Assembly (NCBI RefSeq): GCF_003205205.1
Contig: NZ_QJRL01000014.1
Location: 1-64,000, forward strand
Reading direction: 5' to 3'
Source of the DNA: Pseudomonas sp. LB-090624
GTDB lineage: Bacteria; Pseudomonadota; Gammaproteobacteria; Pseudomonadales; Pseudomonadaceae
DNA length: 64,000 nt
Shown in pieces: positions 11,155 through 43,881 of this stretch (position 1 is the stretch's first letter; every line of letters starts with the position of its first letter). Made by a program: the position numbers and the translations under genes. The notes beneath the pieces were generated by a model that saw only the letters and a list, made by a program, of their open reading frames with translations, made no database searches and was not told the origin of the DNA.

Positions 11155-11242
11155 GGGGCCGAGGCGCGCGCCCCCCTTAGCGCTCTCCACGAGATCGTGC
11201 TCTACAAACAAGGCGGTCGCGCGCGCAGGTGCAGTCGATACT

Positions 11243-20185: not shown

Positions 20186-21634
20186 ATGCCAAGCGATCAT
20201 TCCGCCGGGTCCCCGGCAGGTTCCTCCGTCGACTTCGAAAAGGTCGGCTCGGACTATTTCCAGCAACGTGAACTAAAAAAAGGTGCCGCCGGCTGGGTGC
20301 TGCTGGTCGGCCTGGGCGTGGCGTACGTCATCTCCGGCGACTACGCCGGCTGGAACTTCGGCCTGGCCCAGGGCGGCTGGGGCGGCATGTTCCTCGCCAC
20401 CTTGCTGATGGCCACCATGTACCTGTGCATGTGCTTCTCGCTGGCCGAGCTGTCATCGATGATACCGACTGCTGGCGGCGGCTACGGTTTTGCGCGCAGC
20501 GCGTTCGGGCCGTGGGGCGGCTTCCTGACCGGCACGGCGATTCTTATCGAATACGCCATCGCGCCTGCCGCCATCGCGGTGTTCATCGGCGCCTACTGCC
20601 AATCGCTGTTCGGTATCGGCGGCTGGATGATCTACCTGGCGTTCTACATCGTGTTCATCAGCATCCACATTTTCGGCGTGGGTGAGGCATTGAAGCTGAT
20701 GTTCATCATCACCGCCATCGCCGCCATTGCACTGGCCGTGTTCCTGATCGGCATGGTGCCCCATTTTGATGCGGCCAACCTGTTCGACATCGCCAAAACG
20801 GACGCCGTCGGCGCCAGCAGCTTCCTGCCGTTCGGCTATGTCGGCGTGTGGGCAGCCATCCCCTACGCCATCTGGTTCTTCCTTGCCGTCGAAGGCGTGC
20901 CGCTGGCCGCAGAAGAAACCAAGAACCCCAAGCGTGACCTGCCTCGCGGCCTGATCGGCGCCATGCTGGTACTGCTGGCCTTCGCCTTGCTGATCCTGGT
21001 GGTCGGCCCGGGCGGCGCAGGCTCCGAGGCGCTGAAGGCCTCCGGTAACCCGCTGGTCGAAGCCCTGTCGAAGGCCTACGGCGGCTCCACCTGGATGGGC
21101 GGCTTCGTCAACCTGGTCGGTCTGGCCGGGCTGATCGCCAGCTTCTTCTCGATCATCTATGCCTATTCCCGGCAGATCTTCGCCCTGTCCCGTGCTGGCT
21201 ACCTGCCGCGCAAGCTGTCGGAAACCAACAAGAGCAAGGCCCCGGTAATGGCCTTGGTCATCCCCGGCATCATCGGTTTTGCCCTGTCGCTGACGGGCCA
21301 GGGGGACTTGCTCATCCTGGTGGCAGTGTTTGGCGCTACCCTGTCTTACGTGCTGATGATGGCTGCGCACATCACCCTGCGCATCCGCCGGCCAAAGATG
21401 GAACGCCCATACCGCACCCCAGGTGGCATCTTCACCTCCGGCCTGGCGCTGGTGCTGGCGTGCATCGCCGTGGTCGCCGGGTTCCTGGTCGACCCGCGAG
21501 TAGTCATTGGCGCCGCAGTGATCTATGCGGTATTAATTGCCTACTTTGCTTTCTACAGCCGCCACCACCTGGTTGCGGGCACACCGGAAGAGGAATTCGC
21601 CGCGATCCAGAAGGCCGAAGAGGCCCTGCACTGA
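20186..21634 (+). CDS. eat: Ethanolamine permease
   Basis: A 482-residue APC-superfamily transporter with about 12 hydrophobic segments, starting with GWVLLVGLGVAYVISGDYAG and including the SSMIPTAGGGYGFARSAFGP segment. It should import ethanolamine for EutBC. It lies directly upstream of eutB (46 bases) and downstream of the aldehyde dehydrogenase in a single-direction cluster. Specificity is inferred from context and family. Confidence 0.9.
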   Translation: MPSDHSAGSPAGSSVDFEKVGSDYFQQRELKKGAAGWVLLVGLGVAYVISGDYAGWNFGLAQGGWGGMFLATLLMATMYLCMCFSLAELSSMIPTAGGGYGFARSAFGPWGGFLTGTAILIEYAIAPAAIAVFIGAYCQSLFGIGGWMIYLAFYIVFISIHIFGVGEALKLMFIITAIAAIALAVFLIGMVPHFDAANLFDIAKTDAVGASSFLPFGYVGVWAAIPYAIWFFLAVEGVPLAAEETKNPKRDLPRGLIGAMLVLLAFALLILVVGPGGAGSEALKASGNPLVEALSKAYGGSTWMGGFVNLVGLAGLIASFFSIIYAYSRQIFALSRAGYLPRKLSETNKSKAPVMALVIPGIIGFALSLTGQGDLLILVAVFGATLSYVLMMAAHITLRIRRPKMERPYRTPGGIFTSGLALVLACIAVVAGFLVDPRVVIGAAVIYAVLIAYFAFYSRHHLVAGTPEEEFAAIQKAEEALH

Positions 21635-21680
21635 TCGCCGCCACCCGCCGCGGGGCAGCCCGCGGCTCTGGAGATTCTGT

Positions 21681-23075
21681 ATGGCAAGTTTCGTACACAC
21701 GGTCGGCCATCTGGTCTACCGCTTCGACAGCCTCAAGGAAGTGATGGCCAAGGCCAGCCCGGCACGCTCCGGGGACTGCCTGGCAGGCGTCGCGGCCAGC
21801 AACGACGGCGAGCGCGTCGCCGCGCAGATGGCTTTGGCCAATATTCCGCTGACGCACTTCCTCAATGAAGCATTGATCCCTTACGAAGCAGATGAAGTTA
21901 CCCGCCTGATCATCGACACCCACGATACCCAGGCCTTCGCCCCGGTCAGCCACCTGACCGTCGGTGGTCTGCGCGACTGGCTGCTTAGCGAGGAAGCCAA
22001 CGAAGACAGCCTGCGCGCCCTGGCGCCCGGGTTGACGCCGGAAATGGCCGCTGCCGTGTCGAAGATCATGCGCGTGCAGGACCTGGTGCTGGTGGCGCAA
22101 AAAATCCGCGTGGTCACCCGGTTCCGCGGCACCATGGGCCTGCGCGGGCGCCTGTCGACCCGGCTGCAACCCAACCACCCGACAGACGAACCGGCCGGTA
22201 TTGCCGCCAGCATTCTCGACGGCTTGCTGTACGGCAACGGCGACGCCATGATCGGCATCAACCCGGCCACCGACAGCATCGCTTCGATCTGCGCCCTGCT
22301 GGAAATGCTCGACGCCATCATCCAGCGCTACGACATCCCGACCCAGTCCTGCGTGCTGACCCACGTCACCACCTCGATCGAAGCGATCAACCGCGGCGTG
22401 CCACTGGACCTGGTGTTCCAGTCCATCGCCGGCACCGAGGCGGCCAACGCCGGCTTCGGCATCAACCTGAACGTGTTGCAGGAAGGCTACGAAGCAGGTT
22501 TGTCGTTGAAACGCGGCACCCTCGGGCAGAACCTGATGTACTTCGAAACCGGCCAAGGCAGTGCGCTCTCGGCCAACGCCCACCACGGCGTCGACCAGCA
22601 GACCTGCGAAACCCGCGCCTATGCCGTGGCCCGTCACTTCAAGCCGTTCCTGGTCAACACCGTGGTCGGTTTCATTGGCCCGGAATACCTCTACAACGGC
22701 AAGCAGATCATCCGCGCCGGCCTCGAAGACCATTTCTGCGGCAAGCTGTTGGGCGTGCCGATGGGTTGCGATATCTGCTACACCAACCACGCCGAGGCCG
22801 ATCAGGATGACATGGACACCCTGCTGACCCTGCTGGGTGTGGCCGGGATCAACTTCATCATGGGCATCCCCGGCTCCGACGACATCATGCTCAACTACCA
22901 GACCACCTCGTTCCACGACGCGTTGTACGCGCGCCAGACCCTGGGCCTGAAGCCCGGGCCGGAATTCGAGGCATGGCTGGCCCGCACCGGCATCTTCACC
23001 CAGGCCGATGGCCGGGTGCGCTTCGGTGACAACCTGCCGCCGGCTTTCCGCCAGGCCTTGGCACAGCTTGCATAG
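21681..23075 (+). CDS. eutB: Ethanolamine ammonia-lyase large subunit EutB
   Basis: EutB and EutC form the adenosylcobalamin-dependent enzyme that converts ethanolamine to acetaldehyde and ammonia. The 464-residue product has the family blocks [16 protein letters not shown], the [20 protein letters not shown] segment and [20 protein letters not shown]. Start 21681 follows GGAG at the proper distance; a longer in-frame start inside the permease gene is rejected. No microcompartment shell genes are present, so this is the soluble, non-compartment type. Confidence 0.96.
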
Positions 23076-23083
23076 GGACGACC

Positions 23084-23902
23084 ATGGACCATCGCACGCC
23101 TACCCCCGATAACCCTTGGCTGGCCCTGCGCACCCTGACCCCGGCGCGCATTGCCCTGGGCCGCACCGGCACCAGCCTGCCGACCGGCGCGCAGCTGGAC
23201 TTCCAGTTCGCCCATGCCCAGGCCCGCGATGCCGTGCACCTGGCCTTCGACCACGCCAGCCTGGCTACCCAGCTGAGTGACCGTGGGCGCGAAAGCCTGG
23301 TGCTGCACAGCGCCGCCAGCGACCGCCACCAATACCTGCAGCGCCCGGACCTGGGCCGGCGCCTGAATGAAGACTCGATTGCCACGCTGCGCCAGCACGC
23401 CCAGGCCAACCCCGGCGGCGTCGACCTGGCCATCGTCGTCGCCGACGGCCTGTCGGCGCTGGCCGTGCACCGCCATACGCTGCCATTCCTGACCCGCTTC
23501 GAAGAACAGGCTGCCGCCGACGGATGGACCAGCGCCCCGGTAGTGCTTGTGCAACAGGGCCGTGTGGCGGTGGCCGACGAGGTTGGCGAATTGCTTGGCG
23601 CCCGCATGACGGTGATGCTGATCGGTGAACGCCCGGGGCTCAGCTCGCCCGACAGCCTTGGCCTGTATTTCACCTATGCACCCAAGGTCGGCCTGACCGA
23701 CGCCTACCGCAACTGCATTTCCAACATCCGCCTGGAGGGCCTGAGTTATGGCATGGCGGCACATCGCCTGCTGTACTTGATGCGCGAAGCCTGCCGGCGC
23801 CAGCTTTCCGGAGTGAATCTGAAGGACGAAGCCGAGATCCATAGCATCGACAGCGAAAATGGCCCTTCCCAGCGAGGCAACTTCCTGCTCGGCGAAGGGT
23901 AA
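23084..23902 (+). CDS. eutC: Ethanolamine ammonia-lyase small subunit EutC
   Basis: The 272-residue partner of EutB contributes to the cobalamin site. It carries [16 protein letters not shown] at the N-terminus, [16 protein letters not shown], and the conserved [19 protein letters not shown] block near residue 185, followed by [13 protein letters not shown]. It starts 9 bases after eutB. The predicted operon ends here. Confidence 0.96.
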
Positions 23903-28158: not shown

Positions 28159-29880
28159 ATGCAAAGCAAAACCACACGACGCACCTTCGTCAAAGGCCTG
28201 GCCGCCACTGGACTGCTTGGCGGGTTGGGCATGTGGCGCACGCCGGTGTGGGCCTTGACCAGCCCTGGCCAGCCAAACGTGCTGACAGGCACTGACTTCG
28301 ACCTGTACATCGGTGAACTGCCGGTCAATTTCACCGGCGCAACGCGCACAGCCATGGCAATCAATGGATCATTGCCGGGCCCTACGCTTCGCTGGCGCGA
28401 AGGCGACACCGTTACGCTTCGCGTGCGCAACCGTTTGCAGCAGGACACCTCCATCCACTGGCACGGCATCATCCTGCCGGCCAACATGGATGGTGTGCCT
28501 GGCCTGAGCTTCCACGGCATCGCCCCGGATGGCCTGTATGAGTACAGGTTCACAGTCCATCAGAACGGCACCTACTGGTACCACAGTCACTCAGGCTTCC
28601 AGGAACAGGTTGGGGTGTACGGCGCACTGGTCATCGATGCGAAAGAACCCGAGCCGTTCACCTATGACCGGGATTACGTGGTGATGCTCAGCGACTGGAC
28701 AGATGAAGACCCTGCCCGGGTTCTGTCCAAGCTCAAAAAGCAGTCTGACTACTACAACTTCCACAAACGGACGGTGGGTGATTTCGTCAACGACGTGAGC
28801 GAAAAGGGCTGGTCCGCTGCGGTGGCTGATCGCACGATGTGGGCCGAAATGAACATGAGCCCCACCGATCTGGCAGACGTGAGCGGGTACACCTACACCT
28901 ACCTCATGAACGGCCAGACGCCGGACGGCAACTGGACGGGGGTTTTCAAGCCTGGCGAGAAAATCCGCCTTCGCTTTATCAACGGCTCGGCCATGACGTA
29001 TTTCGACGTGCGGATTCCCGGCCTGAAGATGACGGTGGTTGCGGCAGATGGGCAGTATGTGAAGCCGGTCTCGGTCGACGAGTTACGTATCGCTGTTGCT
29101 GAAACCTACGATGTGATTGTCGAGCCCGAAAATGAGCAGGCCTACACCCTCTTTGCTCAATCCATGGACCGTACCGGTTACGCCAGGGGCACCTTGGCCA
29201 TCCGCGAGGGCTTGCAAGCGGCTGTTCCAGCTGTTGATCCGCGCCCGCTGATTTCCATGAGTGACATGGGTATGGATCACAGCGGCATGACCGGCATGGA
29301 CCATAGCCAGATGGCCGGCATGGATCACGGCAGCATGGCCGGCATGAATGGGGCCATGCAGCGCCATCCTGACTCAGAGACCAACAACCCCCTGGTCGAC
29401 ATGCAGACGATGAGCCCGACGCCGAAACTGAGCGACCCGGGCATCGGGCTGCGGAACAACGGCCGGCGTGTGCTGACGTATGCGGACCTGCGCAGCACGT
29501 TCATTGACCCCGACGGCCGAGAGCCTGGCCGCACAATCGAGTTGCACCTCACAGGCCACATGGAAAAGTTCGCCTGGTCGTTCGACGGGGTCAAGTTCTC
29601 CGATGCCGAGCCGCTACGCCTCAAATACGGGGAGCGCCTGCGTATCACCTTGGTCAACGACACCATGATGACTCACCCCATCCACCTGCATGGCATGTGG
29701 AGCGACCTGGAGGATGAGGACGGCAACTTCATGGTGCGCAAGCACACCATCGACATGCCGCCTGGCTCAAAACGAAGCTACCGCGTGACTGCGGATGCTC
29801 TGGGGCGCTGGGCCTATCACTGCCACCTGCTGTTCCACATGGAAATGGGCATGTTCCGAGAAGTCCGCGTGGACGAATGA
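28159..29880 (+). CDS. copA: Copper-resistance multicopper oxidase CopA
   Basis: A 573-residue periplasmic multicopper oxidase of the CopA/PcoA type, which oxidises Cu(I) and binds copper. The N-terminus carries a Tat signal (TRRTFVKG, then a hydrophobic stretch to VWA). Copper motifs are [28 protein letters not shown] and [12 protein letters not shown], covering the trinuclear and type 1 sites. Residues about 367-400 are a Met/His-rich insert with repeated GMDHxxM units, as in other CopA proteins. It heads a four-gene set with the next three genes; the following start overlaps its end closely. Confidence 0.95.
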
Positions 29881-31918: not shown

Positions 31919-34096
31919 TCAGAAGTCATACCGCGCCCCAACCATCATGCTACGCGACGGCCCATAGAAGTTGAACGTGGAGGTCGAGCCCACCCGCGAC
32001 AGGTAGTCCCGGTCGAACAGGTTGTTGACGTTGAAGGTGGCGGTCAGCTTCGAAGTCACCGGGTACGACAGCATCGCATCCACCGTCGCGTAGCCCGGCG
32101 CGTCGATACGCACGCCGCCGTTTTCGGAGTAGAAGTTGCTCAACGCGGAAATTCCGCCACCAATCGCCAGGCCGGTCAGCGGGCCTTGGTTGATGGTGTA
32201 CTTGCTCCACAGCGAAGCCTGGTTGCGCGGCATGATGAAGAACGTGGTTTCGGCGTCACCCTTGACGGTTTCCGTCTCCATCCAGGTGTAACCGGCCAGC
32301 AGTTCCCAATTCGGCATCAGCTTGCCGCTCATTTCCACTTCCGCGCCCTTCACCCGGGTCTTGCCGGATGCCACGGAGTCGGTAGTGGCCACTCCATCAG
32401 CATCGTACACGGTGGTAGCGCGGTTCTTGTCGGTCAGGCGGAATACCGAGAAGCGCGTATTCAAGTCGCCGCCAAAGTAGCTGCTCTTCAGGCCGAACTC
32501 GTACTGCTCGCCTTCACGCGGTTTCAGCACCCGACCATTGCTGTCGGTGTCGGACTGCGGCTTGAACACCTGCGAATAGCTGGCGTACAGCGCGTGGTTG
32601 TCGGTCAGGTCATAGACCAGGCCGCCGTAAGGGGTGAAGTGGCCGTCGACGCGTTTGCTGTCATTGGTGGTAGCGCCGCTGCTAAGGGTGGTGGTGTAGA
32701 AGTCACCGCGATACCAGCTGAAGCGGCCACCGGCAATCAGCGCCAGGCGCTCCACCGGGCGGAAGGTCACTTTGGAGTACAGGCCGTATTCCTCTTCCTG
32801 CATGCCAGTCTCGGTGCTGTAGTTGGGCGACGGCTTGGCGAACTGCTTCGGCGAGTAAGTATTCACGTTGATCGCGCCGAGATTGGTGGTGCCGTTGAGG
32901 TACTCGGTGTCGTAGTTCTTGTAGTCACTCCCGACCACAAACTCGCTTACCTGCCCGAAGGTTTCGAACGGCTGGCTGTAGCTGGCGTCCAGCGAATAGG
33001 TGTCTTGCGTGAAATCACGGGCGCTGGCGCGCTCGGAGTTGGCGCCTGTGGTGGCATTGGTTGCAGTGAAGGCGTACAGATAGTTGGTGTCGCGGTGCGA
33101 GCCACGGGCCGCGACACGGCCGTAACCGCCATTGTCGAAGCGGTGGGTCAGCTCGGCGACCAGGTCGGTGGTCTTGCCGTCGAAGTAGTTCCAGTCGGCG
33201 CCCAGGAAACGCGAATGGCTGAAGTCGGGCACCTCGCCGGACAACGTGGCCGGGTAGCCGTTGTGCGGGGTGATGTTCTTCACCTCGTGCATCAGGCCGA
33301 ACGACAGGGTGGTGGCGTCGTCCAGGTCGATGTCCAGCGCACCGTAGTAGGTGTTGCTGGTGTTGGCGTTGTAGTCCACTTCGCCATTGGTGTCGTCACG
33401 GGATGCGATGAAGCGCCCGCGCACGCGACCGGCCTCGTCCAGCGGCCCGCTCAGGTCGATTTCCTCATGATTGGTGTCCCAGGTGCCGTAGCTGCCTTCG
33501 ATATGCCCCTGAAACTCGGCGGTCGGGCGCTTGCGTACCATGTTGACGATGCCTCCCAGCTCGCTGGTACTGCTGAACAGCCCGGCCGGCCCGCGCATGA
33601 TCTCGACGCGGTCGAACGCCGCCAACGACGGGACAGTGCCGAAGATACTGGCCATGGGCGCCGGCAGGCCGTCGATATTGAACTCGCTGTACTCGTAGCC
33701 ACGGGCATAGATCGACGAGCGGCCGCTGTCATTGGTCAGGGTGCGCAGGCCAGCGGTGTACTTGGCCAGGTCATCCAGGTGCACGAACTGGCGGTCCTTG
33801 ACGTAGTCCTGGGTGTACACGGTGATCGACTGCGGGATGTCCCTGAGCGCCGCCGGCGTCTTGGTGCCCACGGTAGCGGCATCGACGCTGTAGCCTCCGG
33901 TGGCCTCCGAAGGCAGCATGTCGTAGAGGCGGTTGCCTTCGATAGTCAGTGCCGGCAGGTCCAGCGCGCTGTCTTCGGCTGTCGCCTGGGTCGCTACCGT
34001 TTCAGCCAGTGCCGACAGTGAAAAAGGCGCCAGCAACCCCAGCACCAACCAGCCCCGCGCCCGTCGCGGGCACCCCACACCGATGAAACCGCTCAT
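31919..34096 (-). CDS. TonB-dependent siderophore receptor
   Basis: A 725-residue outer-membrane receptor of the FhuE/FpvA type. A signal peptide ends near LSALAE, a TonB-box-like segment is LPALTIEGN, the plug domain includes RDIPQSITVYTQDYVKDR and GYEYSEFNIDGLPAP with IMRGPAGLFSSTSELGG, and the barrel ends in VGARYDF. There is no N-terminal signalling (STN) domain, so it is not a FecIR-type transducer. It is divergent from a two-component pair. Ligand unknown. Start 34096 is set by the signal peptide. Confidence 0.92.
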   Translation of the reverse strand: MSGFIGVGCPRRARGWLVLGLLAPFSLSALAETVATQATAEDSALDLPALTIEGNRLYDMLPSEATGGYSVDAATVGTKTPAALRDIPQSITVYTQDYVKDRQFVHLDDLAKYTAGLRTLTNDSGRSSIYARGYEYSEFNIDGLPAPMASIFGTVPSLAAFDRVEIMRGPAGLFSSTSELGGIVNMVRKRPTAEFQGHIEGSYGTWDTNHEEIDLSGPLDEAGRVRGRFIASRDDTNGEVDYNANTSNTYYGALDIDLDDATTLSFGLMHEVKNITPHNGYPATLSGEVPDFSHSRFLGADWNYFDGKTTDLVAELTHRFDNGGYGRVAARGSHRDTNYLYAFTATNATTGANSERASARDFTQDTYSLDASYSQPFETFGQVSEFVVGSDYKNYDTEYLNGTTNLGAINVNTYSPKQFAKPSPNYSTETGMQEEEYGLYSKVTFRPVERLALIAGGRFSWYRGDFYTTTLSSGATTNDSKRVDGHFTPYGGLVYDLTDNHALYASYSQVFKPQSDTDSNGRVLKPREGEQYEFGLKSSYFGGDLNTRFSVFRLTDKNRATTVYDADGVATTDSVASGKTRVKGAEVEMSGKLMPNWELLAGYTWMETETVKGDAETTFFIMPRNQASLWSKYTINQGPLTGLAIGGGISALSNFYSENGGVRIDAPGYATVDAMLSYPVTSKLTATFNVNNLFDRDYLSRVGSTSTFNFYGPSRSMMVGARYDF

Positions 34097-34277
34097 GACA
34101 CACCCATCCCCAAGTGATAACAATTCGCAAACGAAACAAGTTGCTTTTTGCGAACGATACCGGACCGAAAACGGGGGTGCAGCATCATTAACCTTCTTAA
34201 CACAATGGAGCGTTGCCCTCGGGCCACCGGCAATGGGATGATCCGTAACTGATAGAAGTTCTCATTCAAGGCGCACC

Positions 34278-37313: not shown

Positions 37314-38294
37314 TCAAGGTTGCGCGTACTTGAGCACGTACAGGCACAGCTCGCGGTAGACATCCACAGGCAGCTGCGACATCAGCTTCTGAGCCTGGCC
37401 GAGGGTTTTGCAACTGAGTTCGGCCATCGTCCGACGGTGTTTCGAACCCAGCAGGCCGGCATGCACCACCTGTGCATACTGAATATAGGAACAAGGGAAA
37501 TCGGCCTGGGGACTGCGCTGGACCTTGAAGTCGATCTTCAGGTCTGCCCCACGGAAGAATGCTCTGCCCTGGTAGGTCTGTTGGGGCACGAGGAGCCCTT
37601 TTTCAGGACAGGTGCTGTGACAGACCGGCAGGCTATTCCTGTCCGTCTCAAGGCCACGTCGATAAAGCACGAGTTCGGAACCTGGCACCTCGATACAGGC
37701 GTTTTCGAAAGCATCGATGATGGCCCTGCCATTGATCTGCGCCTCCTCGATCTGCGTCAGGCTGACCACACGCTCGAGCTCATGATTGCCAACACTGTTG
37801 ACCACACGATCCAGGGTCGACCAGTGGCTGAATTCTTTCTGACACGCAATCAGGTGGATCTCACTCTGATAGCCTTTGCGGGCGGCTTCAGGTGGAAAGT
37901 CAGCGAAATGAGGGCTGTCGAGCGCGGTCTCCATGATGATGTTGTATCCATTATCCATCGCATACGTGCAAATCATCGCGCCCAGGCGCCAGATGAACGG
38001 CTCGGTATGCTCATAGACATAGAGCACGCCTTTGTCTTCCATTGCCCGGTAATGAGGGTGCAGCTCACGAAAATGGGTTTCGTAAAGGCGAACATAATTG
38101 TCGTACCGCCCGCTCTTCAACAGCGTGTTTTCCAGCAAGTAGGTCTTACCCGAGCCCTGTGCACCGGCAATAATGAGCATTTTGGGCTTGAGTACGCCGT
38201 CGACGTAGTCACGCTTCTTGTCGAACAACGAGTCGGCAATCGTTCTGAATGCGACATGAAGATCGGTATCGGTAAAAGGATGGAGAGAGGACAT
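37314..38294 (-). CDS. Zeta-toxin-family P-loop kinase
   Basis: A 326-residue protein with a zeta toxin/PezT-like domain. The Walker A is IIAGAQGSGKTYLLE, followed by FRELHPHY, which matches the zeta signature after the second strand, and IIMETALDSPHFADF. Zeta proteins phosphorylate UDP-GlcNAc and poison wall synthesis unless held by an epsilon antitoxin. No antitoxin-like gene adjoins it. In my visual alignment the residue matching the catalytic Asp of zeta is Thr (YETHFR), so the activity is uncertain. Its base composition is lower in GC than the neighbours. It converges on the esterase gene. Confidence 0.75.
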   Translation of the reverse strand: MSSLHPFTDTDLHVAFRTIADSLFDKKRDYVDGVLKPKMLIIAGAQGSGKTYLLENTLLKSGRYDNYVRLYETHFRELHPHYRAMEDKGVLYVYEHTEPFIWRLGAMICTYAMDNGYNIIMETALDSPHFADFPPEAARKGYQSEIHLIACQKEFSHWSTLDRVVNSVGNHELERVVSLTQIEEAQINGRAIIDAFENACIEVPGSELVLYRRGLETDRNSLPVCHSTCPEKGLLVPQQTYQGRAFFRGADLKIDFKVQRSPQADFPCSYIQYAQVVHAGLLGSKHRRTMAELSCKTLGQAQKLMSQLPVDVYRELCLYVLKYAQP

Positions 38295-38449
38295 GACGGT
38301 TCGTTTCCTTGGTTTGCCAATGTGACCGTCACCAAGGTAGGCGCTGCGGCAGGTGAGAAAGGGGTAAATGGTTACTGCTGCCCGTCTTGTCGGAGACGGT
38401 AGAGCAGCGGGTTGCCAGTAGGGTGGCACAGTGCTGTATGCTTGCTTGG

Positions 38450-40720: not shown

Positions 40721-40803
40721 TCCCTGTGGGAGCGGGTTCACCCGCGAATGCGCCAGTAAATTCAATATCGCATTCGCGGGTAAACCCGCTCCCGCAGGGG
40801 CCG
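40721..40803. repeat. Inverted pair of P. putida REP elements
   Basis: CCCTGTGGGAGCGGGTTCA and its reverse-complement-like partner AAACCCGCTCCCGCAGGG are separated by a short spacer, with CCCGCGAATGCG/CGCATTCGCGGG forming the inner arms. The transcript could fold into one long stem. The pair separates ispA from dxs. Confidence 0.88.
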
Positions 40804-40883
40804 CGTAACCTGTGGTCGAATGGGCACTTTTCCCACAATGGGTTAAACTGCCGCGTCTTCACACACCTATAACGACTCGCCTG

Positions 40884-42779
40884 ATGCCCACGACGTTTCA
40901 AGAGATCCCCCGCGAACGCCCGGTCACGCCGTTGCTCGACCGCGCTGACACGCCTGCCGGCCTGCGCCGGCTGGCCGAAGCCGACCTGGAGACCCTGGCC
41001 GACGAGTTGCGCCAGGAATTACTCTACACCGTGGGGCAGACCGGTGGGCACTTTGGTGCCGGCCTGGGCGTGATCGAGCTGACCATCGCCCTGCACTACG
41101 TGTTCGACACCCCGGACGACCGGTTGGTGTGGGATGTGGGCCACCAGGCCTACCCACACAAAATCCTCACCGGGCGCCGTAACCGCATGCTCAGCCTGCG
41201 CCAGAAGGACGGCATCGCCGCCTTCCCGCGCCGCAGCGAAAGCGAGTACGACACCTTTGGAGTCGGTCACTCCAGCACCTCGATCAGCGCCGCGCTGGGC
41301 ATGGCCATTGCTGCCCGCCTGCAAAACAGCGCGCGCAAGTCGATCGCGGTGATCGGTGACGGCGCACTCACTGCCGGCATGGCCTTCGAGGCGTTGAACC
41401 ACGCCCAGGAAGTCAACGCCGACATGCTGGTCATCCTCAACGACAACGACATGTCGATTTCGCGCAATGTCGGCGGCCTGTCCAATTACCTGGCCAAGAT
41501 CCTCTCCAGCCGCACCTACGCGAGCATGCGCGAAGGCAGCAAAAAAGTGCTGTCGCGGCTGCCAGGCGCCTGGGAAATTGCCCGCCGCACCGAAGAGTAC
41601 GCCAAGGGCATGCTGGTGCCGGGCACATTGTTCGAAGAACTGGGCTGGAACTACATCGGCCCAATCGATGGCCACGACCTGCCGACCATGATCGCCACCC
41701 TGCGCAACATGCGTGACCTCAAGGGCCCGCAGTTCCTGCACGTGGTGACCAAGAAGGGTAAGGGCTTCGCCCCAGCCGAAATCGACCCGATCGGCTACCA
41801 TGCCATCACCAAGCTGGAGCCGGCCGACAAGCCCGCCGCGCCAAAGAAAGCCAGCGGGCCGAAATACTCCGCCGTGTTCGGCCAGTGGCTGTGCGACATG
41901 GCCGCTACCGACAACCGCCTGGTGGGCATTACCCCGGCGATGAAGGAAGGCTCGGACCTGGTCGACTTCAGCGAGCGCTACCCTGAGCGCTACTTCGACG
42001 TGGCGATCGCCGAGCAGCATGCCGTGACCCTGGCGGCCGGCATGGCCTGCGAGGGCAGCAAGCCGGTGGTGGCGATCTACTCCACCTTCCTGCAGCGTGC
42101 CTACGACCAGCTGATCCACGACGTGGCGGTGCAGAACCTCGACGTGCTGTTCGCCATCGACCGCGCCGGCCTGGTCGGCGAGGACGGCCCGACCCACGCC
42201 GGCAGCTACGACCTGTCGTACCTGCGCTGCATCCCGGGCATGCTGGTGATGACCCCCAGCGACGAGAACGAGCTGCGCAAGATGCTCAGCACCGGCCACC
42301 TGTACAACGGCCCGGCGGCAGTGCGCTACCCGCGCGGCACCGGCCCGAATGCACCGATCAGTGGAGACCTTGAGCCGCTGGAAATCGGCAAGGGTGTAAT
42401 CCGTCGCCAGGGCGAGAAAGTGGCCTTGTTGGTGTTCGGCGTACAACTGGCCGAGGCCATGCAAGTGGCCGAACAGATCAACGCCACGGTGGTCGACATG
42501 CGCTTCGTCAAGCCGCTGGACGAGGCGCTGGTGCTGGAGCTGGCAGGCAGCCATGAGCTGCTGGTAACCATCGAAGAAAACGCCATCATGGGTGGCGCGG
42601 GGGCTGCGGTGGGTGAGTGCCTTGCCAGCCAGGCAGTGCTCAAGCCGCTTCTGCACCTGGGCCTGCCGGATATCTATGTCGAGCATGCCAAGCCGGCACA
42701 GATGCTGGCTGAGTGCGGGCTGGATGCAGCCGGGATCGAGGCGTCAGTGAAAGCCCGCATGGCCAAGCTCGGCCTGTAG
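40884..42779 (+). CDS. dxs: 1-deoxy-D-xylulose-5-phosphate synthase
   Basis: Dxs joins pyruvate and glyceraldehyde 3-phosphate, the first step of the MEP pathway. The 631-residue product has the ThDP motif starting [17 protein letters not shown] and reaching [26 protein letters not shown], and the transketolase-like [13 protein letters not shown] and [15 protein letters not shown] blocks. Start 40884 ([13 protein letters not shown]) is chosen over an in-frame start within the REP-adjacent leader. Confidence 0.97.
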
Positions 42780-42784
42780 GGGCC

Positions 42785-42863
42785 TCTCCCGCGTCAACCC
42801 GCGCCTACCGGGGCTGCACAGTGCTCAAGCGCTGTAGCGCCCCTGTGGGAGCGGGTTGACCCG
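42785..42863. repeat. Degenerate REP pair next to the receptor remnant
   Basis: CCCTGTGGGAGCGGGTTGACCC at 42841 is a clear REP half. TCCCGCGTCAACCCGCG at 42787 is a diverged inverted partner. The pair lies between dxs and the btuB-type remnant, where deletions mediated by repeats could have begun. Confidence 0.6.
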
Positions 42864-42883
42864 AGGATGCTTCGTAACTGCCC

Positions 42884-43091
42884 ATGAAAAGTCTGCCTGT
42901 GTCGCGATTCTCTGTGCCCCAACATTCCTTATGGCCGCTGAGCGCGACGACGCCCTCAAGCTCCCAGACGTGCTGATCAGCGCAAGCCGCCAGGTCGAAT
43001 CTCGCACCGCTACCAGCGCCGCCAATACGGTCTTCCGTGGTACCAAGGCCGCACGTTCCTGCTCAGCATCACCTGGACGCCGGCGCTTTAG
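42884..43091 (+). pseudogene. Collapsed TonB-dependent receptor gene (btuB-type remnant)
   Basis: Only the two ends of a B12-type TonB receptor remain. The N-terminal part reads LKLPDVLISASRQVESRTAT then SAANTVF (42952-43035). It then jumps, in another frame, to PWYQGRTFLLSITWTPAL and a stop at 43091, which looks like a receptor C-terminus. The junction is at about 43035. The signal peptide region also changes frame near 42930. About 1.7 kb of plug and barrel is missing. It converges on and overlaps the tail of the btuF-like gene. Identification as btuB rests on the N-terminal pattern and the neighbour. Confidence 0.8.
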
Positions 43092-43881
43092 CCGCTAGTA
43101 ACGCGCACAGGCGGGCGGTGGCTTCGATCATCTGCCCGCTGGGTCGCTCCAGGCCTTTGTCAGGCACCACCAGCAAGCGTTCATCGGCGACCGCACGCAG
43201 CTGCGGCCAGGCTTTCCAGCTCGCCAGTTGTGCCTGATCGCCGGCAAGGATGACCTGTGGATTGCGCAGCAACACAGACTCCACACTCACCTGTGGCGCC
43301 GGTTGGCCGAGGTCGGCGAACACATTGCGCGCCCCGCACACAGCCAGCGCGTCACTGACTACCTGACCGCCTCCCAGGGTGTACAGCGGCCGATCCCAGA
43401 CTTGGTAGAACACCTGCAAAGGCTCATCCCGTCGATACTGCTGGCGCAGCTGCTGCAACCGCTCACGCAGGGATTGCGCGTACCGCTGCCCCTGCTCGGC
43501 GCGCCCGATGCGCCCGGCAATGGCTTCGATCTGCTCGATGAGCTGGTCGATGTCATGGGGTTCGGCGCTGAAGGTGGCAATGCCAAGGCGCTCGAGTTGG
43601 TGGCGCTGGGCCAAGGGCACACTGCCCGGCCACAGCAGCAACAAGTCGGGGCGTAAGCTGAGCAGGCGCTCCATGTCCAGCTGCCCCTGGCGCCCCAGCG
43701 AAGGCAGGTCGCGCAACCCCGCTGGCCGCTCACCACCGTCAAGCACGCCCACCAACAGGTCATCGGCCTGCAGCTCGAGCATGATTTCCGTCATCGAAGG
43801 GGCCAGGCTGACTACGCGCAGCGGTTCACCAGCCAGTACGGAGCAGGCAAACAGCGCCAGCAGGCCAGGGAGCAGGCGCAT
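43069..43881 (-). CDS. btuF: Periplasmic cobalamin-binding protein BtuF-like
   Basis: A 270-residue periplasmic binding protein of the BtuF/FhuD-like class, expected to bring cobalamin to an ABC importer. It has a signal peptide (LLALFACSVLAGEP), then VVSLAPSMTEIMLELQADDLL, PDLLLLWPG, and VSVESVLLRNPQVILAG. No btuCD genes are adjacent. Its partner receptor gene on the other strand is collapsed (42884-43091). It overlaps the upstream membrane gene by TGATG. Confidence 0.85.
   Translation of the reverse strand: MRLLPGLLALFACSVLAGEPLRVVSLAPSMTEIMLELQADDLLVGVLDGGERPAGLRDLPSLGRQGQLDMERLLSLRPDLLLLWPGSVPLAQRHQLERLGIATFSAEPHDIDQLIEQIEAIAGRIGRAEQGQRYAQSLRERLQQLRQQYRRDEPLQVFYQVWDRPLYTLGGGQVVSDALAVCGARNVFADLGQPAPQVSVESVLLRNPQVILAGDQAQLASWKAWPQLRAVADERLLVVPDKGLERPSGQMIEATARLCALLAAKAPASR

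Follow-up and report, generated by a model that had tools for sequence, protein, structure and literature searches.

Pseudogenes that keep the ends of a gene and break at short repeats are of a common kind. For the locus described here the closest known systems are such direct-repeat deletion scars, the cobalamin receptor BtuB of E. coli (TIGR01779; PDB 1nqe) and the vitamin B12-binding protein BtuF (NF002894; PDB 5ysc, 1n4a). The window, a 64,000-nucleotide stretch of the genome of Pseudomonas sp. LB-090624, holds between dxs and btuF (42884–43091) the scar of a btuB gene, at a place where most relatives carry an intact copy. A relative's intact copy aligns lengthwise with E. coli BtuB (residues 35–617, E = 2.1e-60) and also adjoins a btuF gene; its protein nevertheless scores under the TIGR01779 cut-off, and the window itself keeps about 210 nt, no frame of which encodes a receptor.

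Anatomy of the btuB scar

When window positions 42760–43160 were searched against 298 Pseudomonas genomes, the full stretch was found only in the strain's own genome among the matches listed. Relatives match it in two blocks, 42760–43035 and 43045–43160 (query positions 1–276 and 286–401), which in their genomes lie about 1.7 kb apart. The intervening DNA is taken up by an intact btuB, some 620 codons long, and a long BtuB-type open frame was present there in all 20 of the relatives fetched from those matches. The original prediction, a B12-type receptor remnant beside an intact btuF-like gene with some 1.7 kb missing, is borne out by these alignments: both ends of the remnant align with the ends of relatives' intact btuB, and the missing DNA, measured against two relatives (G156 and G264), amounts to 117 + 1,546 = 1,663 nt. 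The prediction had also described two fused ends. Both are real and in different frames, but the scar consists of three pieces, of which the plug-domain piece had been missed; the 'PWYQ' of that reading is this piece (43036–43054) in the wrong frame.

Three lesions distinguish the remnant from its relatives, a 1-base frameshift and two deletions, of 117 and 1,546 nt (all pieces on the plus strand). The 5' piece (42884–43035) comprises the start codon, a frameshifted signal peptide and the first mature residues as far as SAANTVF. One base is absent directly 3' of its ATG (window ATGAAAAGTCTGCC versus ATGAAGAAATCTGCC in G156), so that start codon and mature N-terminus are in different frames; the frame that the ATG opens runs into a stop after 30 codons. 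After AANTVF, 117 nt are gone in frame, and the plug-domain piece (43036–43054) follows, reading RGTKAA and giving 22–24-nt matches to the btuB interior of G156 and G264. Finally, 1,546 nt are gone between two copies of a 10-bp repeat, AAGGCCGCAC: in the intact gene one copy falls in the plug-domain piece and the other lies close to the 3' end, and in the window the sequence stands at 43045–43054. The frame shifts here, and the 3' piece (43045–43091) reads GRTFLLSITWTPAL followed by a stop, in a frame other than that of the 5' piece. Both repeat copies are perfect in G264, while the inner one differs in G156; the distance between them is 1,546 on G156 and G264 and 1,549 on G288. With a frameshift and 1,663 nt gone, the window holds no open reading frame for a plug and a barrel. 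The exact junction string was absent from 80 named loci and, the window's own locus aside, from all others fetched, and the idea that the scar is common to relatives was rejected on that ground.

Upstream lies dxs (40812–42779, plus strand), named from the annotation that a matching plasmid record carries, with its start codon unrefined, and used here both as flank and as tree marker. The degenerate REP halves that had been placed upstream of the remnant correspond to real REP-like DNA, which forms a single inverted pair (42790–42863; halves 42790–42825 and 42828–42863) between dxs and the btuB remnant. Several relatives whose btuB is intact align across the DNA in which the pair sits, so that it predates the deletion; since, in addition, the breakpoints lie inside the gene, the pair was rejected as the cause. 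Two REP-like heads in opposite orientation just 5' of dxs (40725–40796) resemble the pair on its 3' side.

Downstream, the intact btuF-like gene (43069–43881, minus strand, 270 aa) converges on the remnant and shares its last 23 bp with the end of btuB: the btuB stop codon (43089–43091) lies inside the end of btuF, whose own stop is at 43069–43071 on the other strand. Of 66 named loci with a one-piece btuB, 46 have an overlap of 23 bp and four have one of 29 bp; the other 16 show neither, the remaining values listed being gaps, so that the overlap is not general. In seven of eight relatives without btuB the btuF-side end DNA matches that of an intact locus (L074), the exception being L097, which gave no match. 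Selection on btuF would be expected to hold the last bases of btuB. The closest solved relative of the btuF product is 5ysc (E = 2.6e-45), followed by eight further vitamin B12-binding sequences before any heme-binding one, with a score against NF002894 of 141.3 bits that lies under the curated 234 bits. A 139-aa open frame behind btuF has no NCBIfam match.

The intact btuB product was represented by the protein of G264 (P0001), which is identical to a protein of P. putida W15Oct28. In a search with this one orthologue the best solved relatives were six BtuB sequences (E = 1.2e-60 to 6.7e-59), but its TIGR01779 score, 461 bits, is under the curated cut-off of 599.7. No RNA-family match was found at seven dxs loci searched, six of them with intact btuB, and btuB itself therefore does not look riboswitch-controlled. 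Given the score and the lack of a riboswitch at these loci, the substrate is taken from resemblance and from the btuF neighbour, on which basis the intact orthologue is predicted to be a cobalamin receptor.

Loss of btuB and retention of btuF among relatives

The original prediction allowed that outer-membrane uptake of cobalamin had been lost or moved elsewhere. P0001 found no match in the strain's own genome at E <= 1e-30, the threshold at which it found one in 36 of 45 genomes (the strain's own plus 44 that belong to the 80 named loci). No match was obtained in nine: the strain's own and the genomes of eight relatives whose locus has lost btuB. The gene was thus lost, and its relocation was rejected. 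TIGR01779 gave 43 matches in the genome, none above the cut-off (best 96.7 bits), and the five weak matches that were checked, one of them in the window, all fit other TonB receptor families better. Elsewhere in the window are a TonB receptor of FauA/FhuE type (31919–34123), near a copper-resistance multicopper oxidase gene (28159–29880), and a 371-aa open frame (37314–38429) in which a P-loop-like GAQGSGKT motif was picked out by eye and for which NCBIfam gave nothing at 1e-10.

For the wider comparison, named genomes were scanned with the BtuF protein and the best 80 of 173 loci were kept, a sampling in which loss of both genes is invisible. By tblastn with P0001, btuB is in one piece in 67 of these and absent from eight (L071, L073, L075, L076, L080, L097, L104 and L114); it is in two pieces in two (L092 and L136), cut by a contig end in two (L093 and L144), and in one (L127) the stretch contains neither dxs nor btuB. 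The two pieces in L092 (P. entomophila COR5) and L136 (P. lini DSM 16768) are in different frames, which may reflect frameshifts, decay or sequencing errors. Two btuB genes, of G065 and G118, were flagged with stop codons; that of G065, the one examined, has its stop before its start codon and was not counted as broken. L086 (Pantoea sp. Ap-967) and L129 (a Paucimonas MAG) have Pseudomonas-type dxs and btuF, fall among Pseudomonas on the tree and are probably mislabelled.

On a dxs tree of 76 rows, built by a quick method with 24 of its 73 inner branches left open, nine rows carry the label 'lost', which requires six changes, at least four of them forced by starred branches. None of 500 label shuffles gave as few as six changes (mean 8.7), so the losses are clustered on the tree. 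The scars themselves are of at least five kinds, the window's included: whole-gene removal with similar ends in L071, L073, L075, L080 and probably L076, a 26-nt gap in L097, two inner fragments in L104 and a separate kind in L114. Within the Pseudomonas putida group several independent losses of the gene have taken place. In the open-licence papers searched, which are weak evidence of absence, we found no report of btuB loss in this group.

In the set of 298 Pseudomonas genomes, 234 have a btuB match at E <= 1e-60 and 253 a btuF match at E <= 1e-30; comparison of the lists by eye gives btuF alone in 19, btuB alone in none and neither in 45, figures that rest on unequal thresholds and include some fragmented assemblies among the 19 and kin genomes that are not independent events. 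In four relatives that seemingly share a deletion, dN/dS of btuF is 0.085 (six pairs, 0.050–0.135), close to the 0.089 and 0.104 of two btuB-bearing groups (10 pairs each), which indicates that btuF is still under purifying selection after btuB loss. Our best guess is that it then serves another receptor or retains cobamides in the periplasm.

Cobalamin synthesis and a second TonB receptor

The window does carry the genes of B12-dependent ethanolamine ammonia-lyase that had been reported in it, eutB for the large subunit (21537–23075, plus strand, start unrefined; NF011649, 729 bits) and eutC for the small subunit (23084–23902, plus strand; NF003971, 352.8 bits), both scoring above their cut-offs. 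What the earlier reading omitted is most of the aerobic cobalamin pathway, with which, to judge from gene content, the enzyme need not depend on uptake. A search for de novo synthesis genes, which it had proposed, recognised 19 cobalamin-synthesis or cobalt-uptake proteins by NCBIfam in a scan that covered some of the pathway's steps, cobP/cobU, cobV, cobE and chlD being among those outside it. CobK, a CbiD-type C1-methyltransferase, CobL (CbiE+CbiT), CobG, CobH, CobI and CobJ are encoded on contig C16; CobW, CobN and a ChlI-like ATPase (under its cut-offs) on C77; CobO, CobB, BluB, a CbiB-type synthase, a threonine-phosphate decarboxylase and CobQ on C17, together with an alpha-ribazole-phosphatase-like protein (156.7 bits; cut-off 162.9); and CbtA and CobM on C22. 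The ethanolamine ammonia-lyase could be supplied by this synthesis. cobN was present in all 14 genomes examined, including the nine that lack btuB.

An excerpt of PMC8123684 places btuB 5' of cobO in P. denitrificans. That arrangement was not seen here: close before cobO on C17 stands a cobalamin riboswitch, one of five RF00174 matches in the genome. The earlier reading also omitted a different TonB receptor and an ABC transporter, which stand behind cobalamin riboswitches. They lie on the minus strand of contig C50, in the order riboswitch piece, TonB receptor, membrane protein (no NCBIfam match), full riboswitch and ABC transporter. The receptor (708 aa) is of the TIGR01783 siderophore-receptor type (287.5 bits, under the curated cut-off), and the permease resembles F420-0 and BtuC permeases, likewise under curated cut-offs. 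In all 11 relatives' loci examined a full riboswitch (positions 1–189) precedes the receptor gene; the strain's own copy covers positions 50–166 only, the one-piece aptamer having been split by an insertion. The last 126–127 nt of C50 are common to five other contig ends, and 27–31 nt to six more. The end of C22 carries the missing 5' half of the riboswitch together with the DNA upstream of it, with 87.8% identity to W15Oct28 over 1,018 nt, and both insertion flanks, read from the contig ends, show TCGTGTTA, an 8-bp target duplication. DNA matching the insertion turned up in 13 records; among the 12 plasmid rows listed, 11 give IS256-family transposase as its annotation. The site of this IS256-type insertion is at 11172/11171 of C50 and at the end of C22 in the strain's genome, G000 (loci L151 and L184). 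A promoter scan, of a kind that is weak, gave nothing sigma-70-like between insertion and receptor gene; the receptor may have been either silenced or freed. The open-licence papers searched, again weak evidence of absence, contain no report of an insertion sequence in this riboswitch.

Of the 45 genomes, 43 encode a relative at least 60% identical to the C50 receptor, five of these relatives lying at 60–61% and being possibly not orthologues. The two genomes without one, G331 (locus L104) and G341 (L114), both lack btuB, have no C50-receptor relative above 37% identity, keep cobN, and give five and four RF00174 matches, respectively. The suggestion that the C50 receptor is a necessary backup is left unsupported by these two relatives.

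Explanations for the loss

The reading in which we have high confidence is that btuB in this strain is dead through three lesions, that its loss is tolerated by virtue of the strain's own cobalamin, and that the receptor has been dropped repeatedly in the P. putida group. The ancestor would have had, in a dxs-btuB-btuF locus, a TonB-dependent outer-membrane receptor for cobalamin. The frameshift after the start codon, the in-frame 117-nt deletion and the 1,546-nt deletion inactivated it, perhaps in that order, and the 10-bp direct repeat at the ends of the last is what would be expected if it arose by short-repeat slippage. The 3' tip was probably kept for its second role as the end of the convergent, still-selected btuF. 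Own cobalamin synthesis most likely made the loss tolerable; the second, riboswitch-associated TonB receptor may help and would not be needed, because two btuB-less relatives without a close relative of it keep cobN. As a single case the window's btuB is an ordinary pseudogene, a known kind of scar left by gene loss, and what happened at this site is ordinary gene decay.

The deletion is known from one draft assembly of 87 contigs, in which a repeat-induced collapse could in principle have taken out the middle of btuB. We consider such an artefact very improbable: the end repeats are only 10 bp long, the lesions are three and separate, one being a frameshift, the locus is inside a 118-kb contig, and comparable losses occur in relatives. 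Those losses, independent, several in one group and with different breakpoints, are also what would be seen if BtuB were a docking site for phage or bacteriocin and its deletion an escape, the strain's own B12 keeping the cost low; on this view each of the repeated losses would be a resistance event, as opposed to neutral decay. BtuB is treated as a phage receptor in the parts available of papers on other bacteria, and in those of PMC12054119 it is named only as a known receptor and an E. coli example. For btuB-annotated genes of P. aeruginosa isolates followed through phage therapy, an excerpt of PMC12754627 lists one nonsense change and one 1-bp deletion, but the gene names there are annotation labels and the excerpt claims no cause. 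No sign of a phage or bacteriocin came up incidentally in this genome, no P. putida phage using this receptor was found among the papers listed, and we think selected loss unlikely.

Replacement also appears doubtful to us. Here the C50 receptor would have taken over cobamide uptake and made BtuB redundant, the IS256-type insertion freeing it from repression. The wide occurrence of the C50 receptor, the riboswitch before it in every relative's locus examined, the ABC transporter after the second riboswitch and the insertion with its target duplication, visible from two contig ends, are all in keeping with this. However, all 36 btuB-bearing genomes of the set have the C50 receptor as well, so that its presence fails to tell losers of btuB from keepers, and among the nine losers two do without it; its sequence resembles siderophore receptors, and the insertion, with no promoter found behind it, may equally silence the gene.

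Beyond tolerated loss of a dead gene, a bolder proposal can be put forward tentatively, as a possibility that we rate below even chances: that the P. putida group sheds BtuB repeatedly while BtuF, fully selected, has a BtuB-free job, and that this strain is perhaps a pure producer. BtuF might then hold, for example, cobamides that enter by another receptor or leak from the cell's own synthesis, and the strain, in which the B12 control of the second receptor is broken too, may have abandoned regulated B12 import altogether. The pattern of interest is that of several independent losses of the B12 receptor in carriers of cobN, with the periplasmic partner btuF kept, which makes the btuB-less strains natural knock-outs for the role of BtuF without BtuB. 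It also carries a warning, in that BtuB-mediated uptake is not proved by the presence of btuF or of a B12-dependent enzyme.

Set against the known systems, the minus-strand neighbour of the scar is like BtuF in being intact and in having vitamin B12-binding proteins as its best solved relatives, and differs in that no btuC or btuD was recognised by eye among the adjoining open frames of the window and in that 19 of the 298 Pseudomonas genomes keep btuF in the absence of btuB. With direct-repeat deletion scars the window shares breakpoints in a 10-bp repeat and remnant ends; it differs from them in that its 3' remnant is common to an overlapping neighbour gene that is still under selection.
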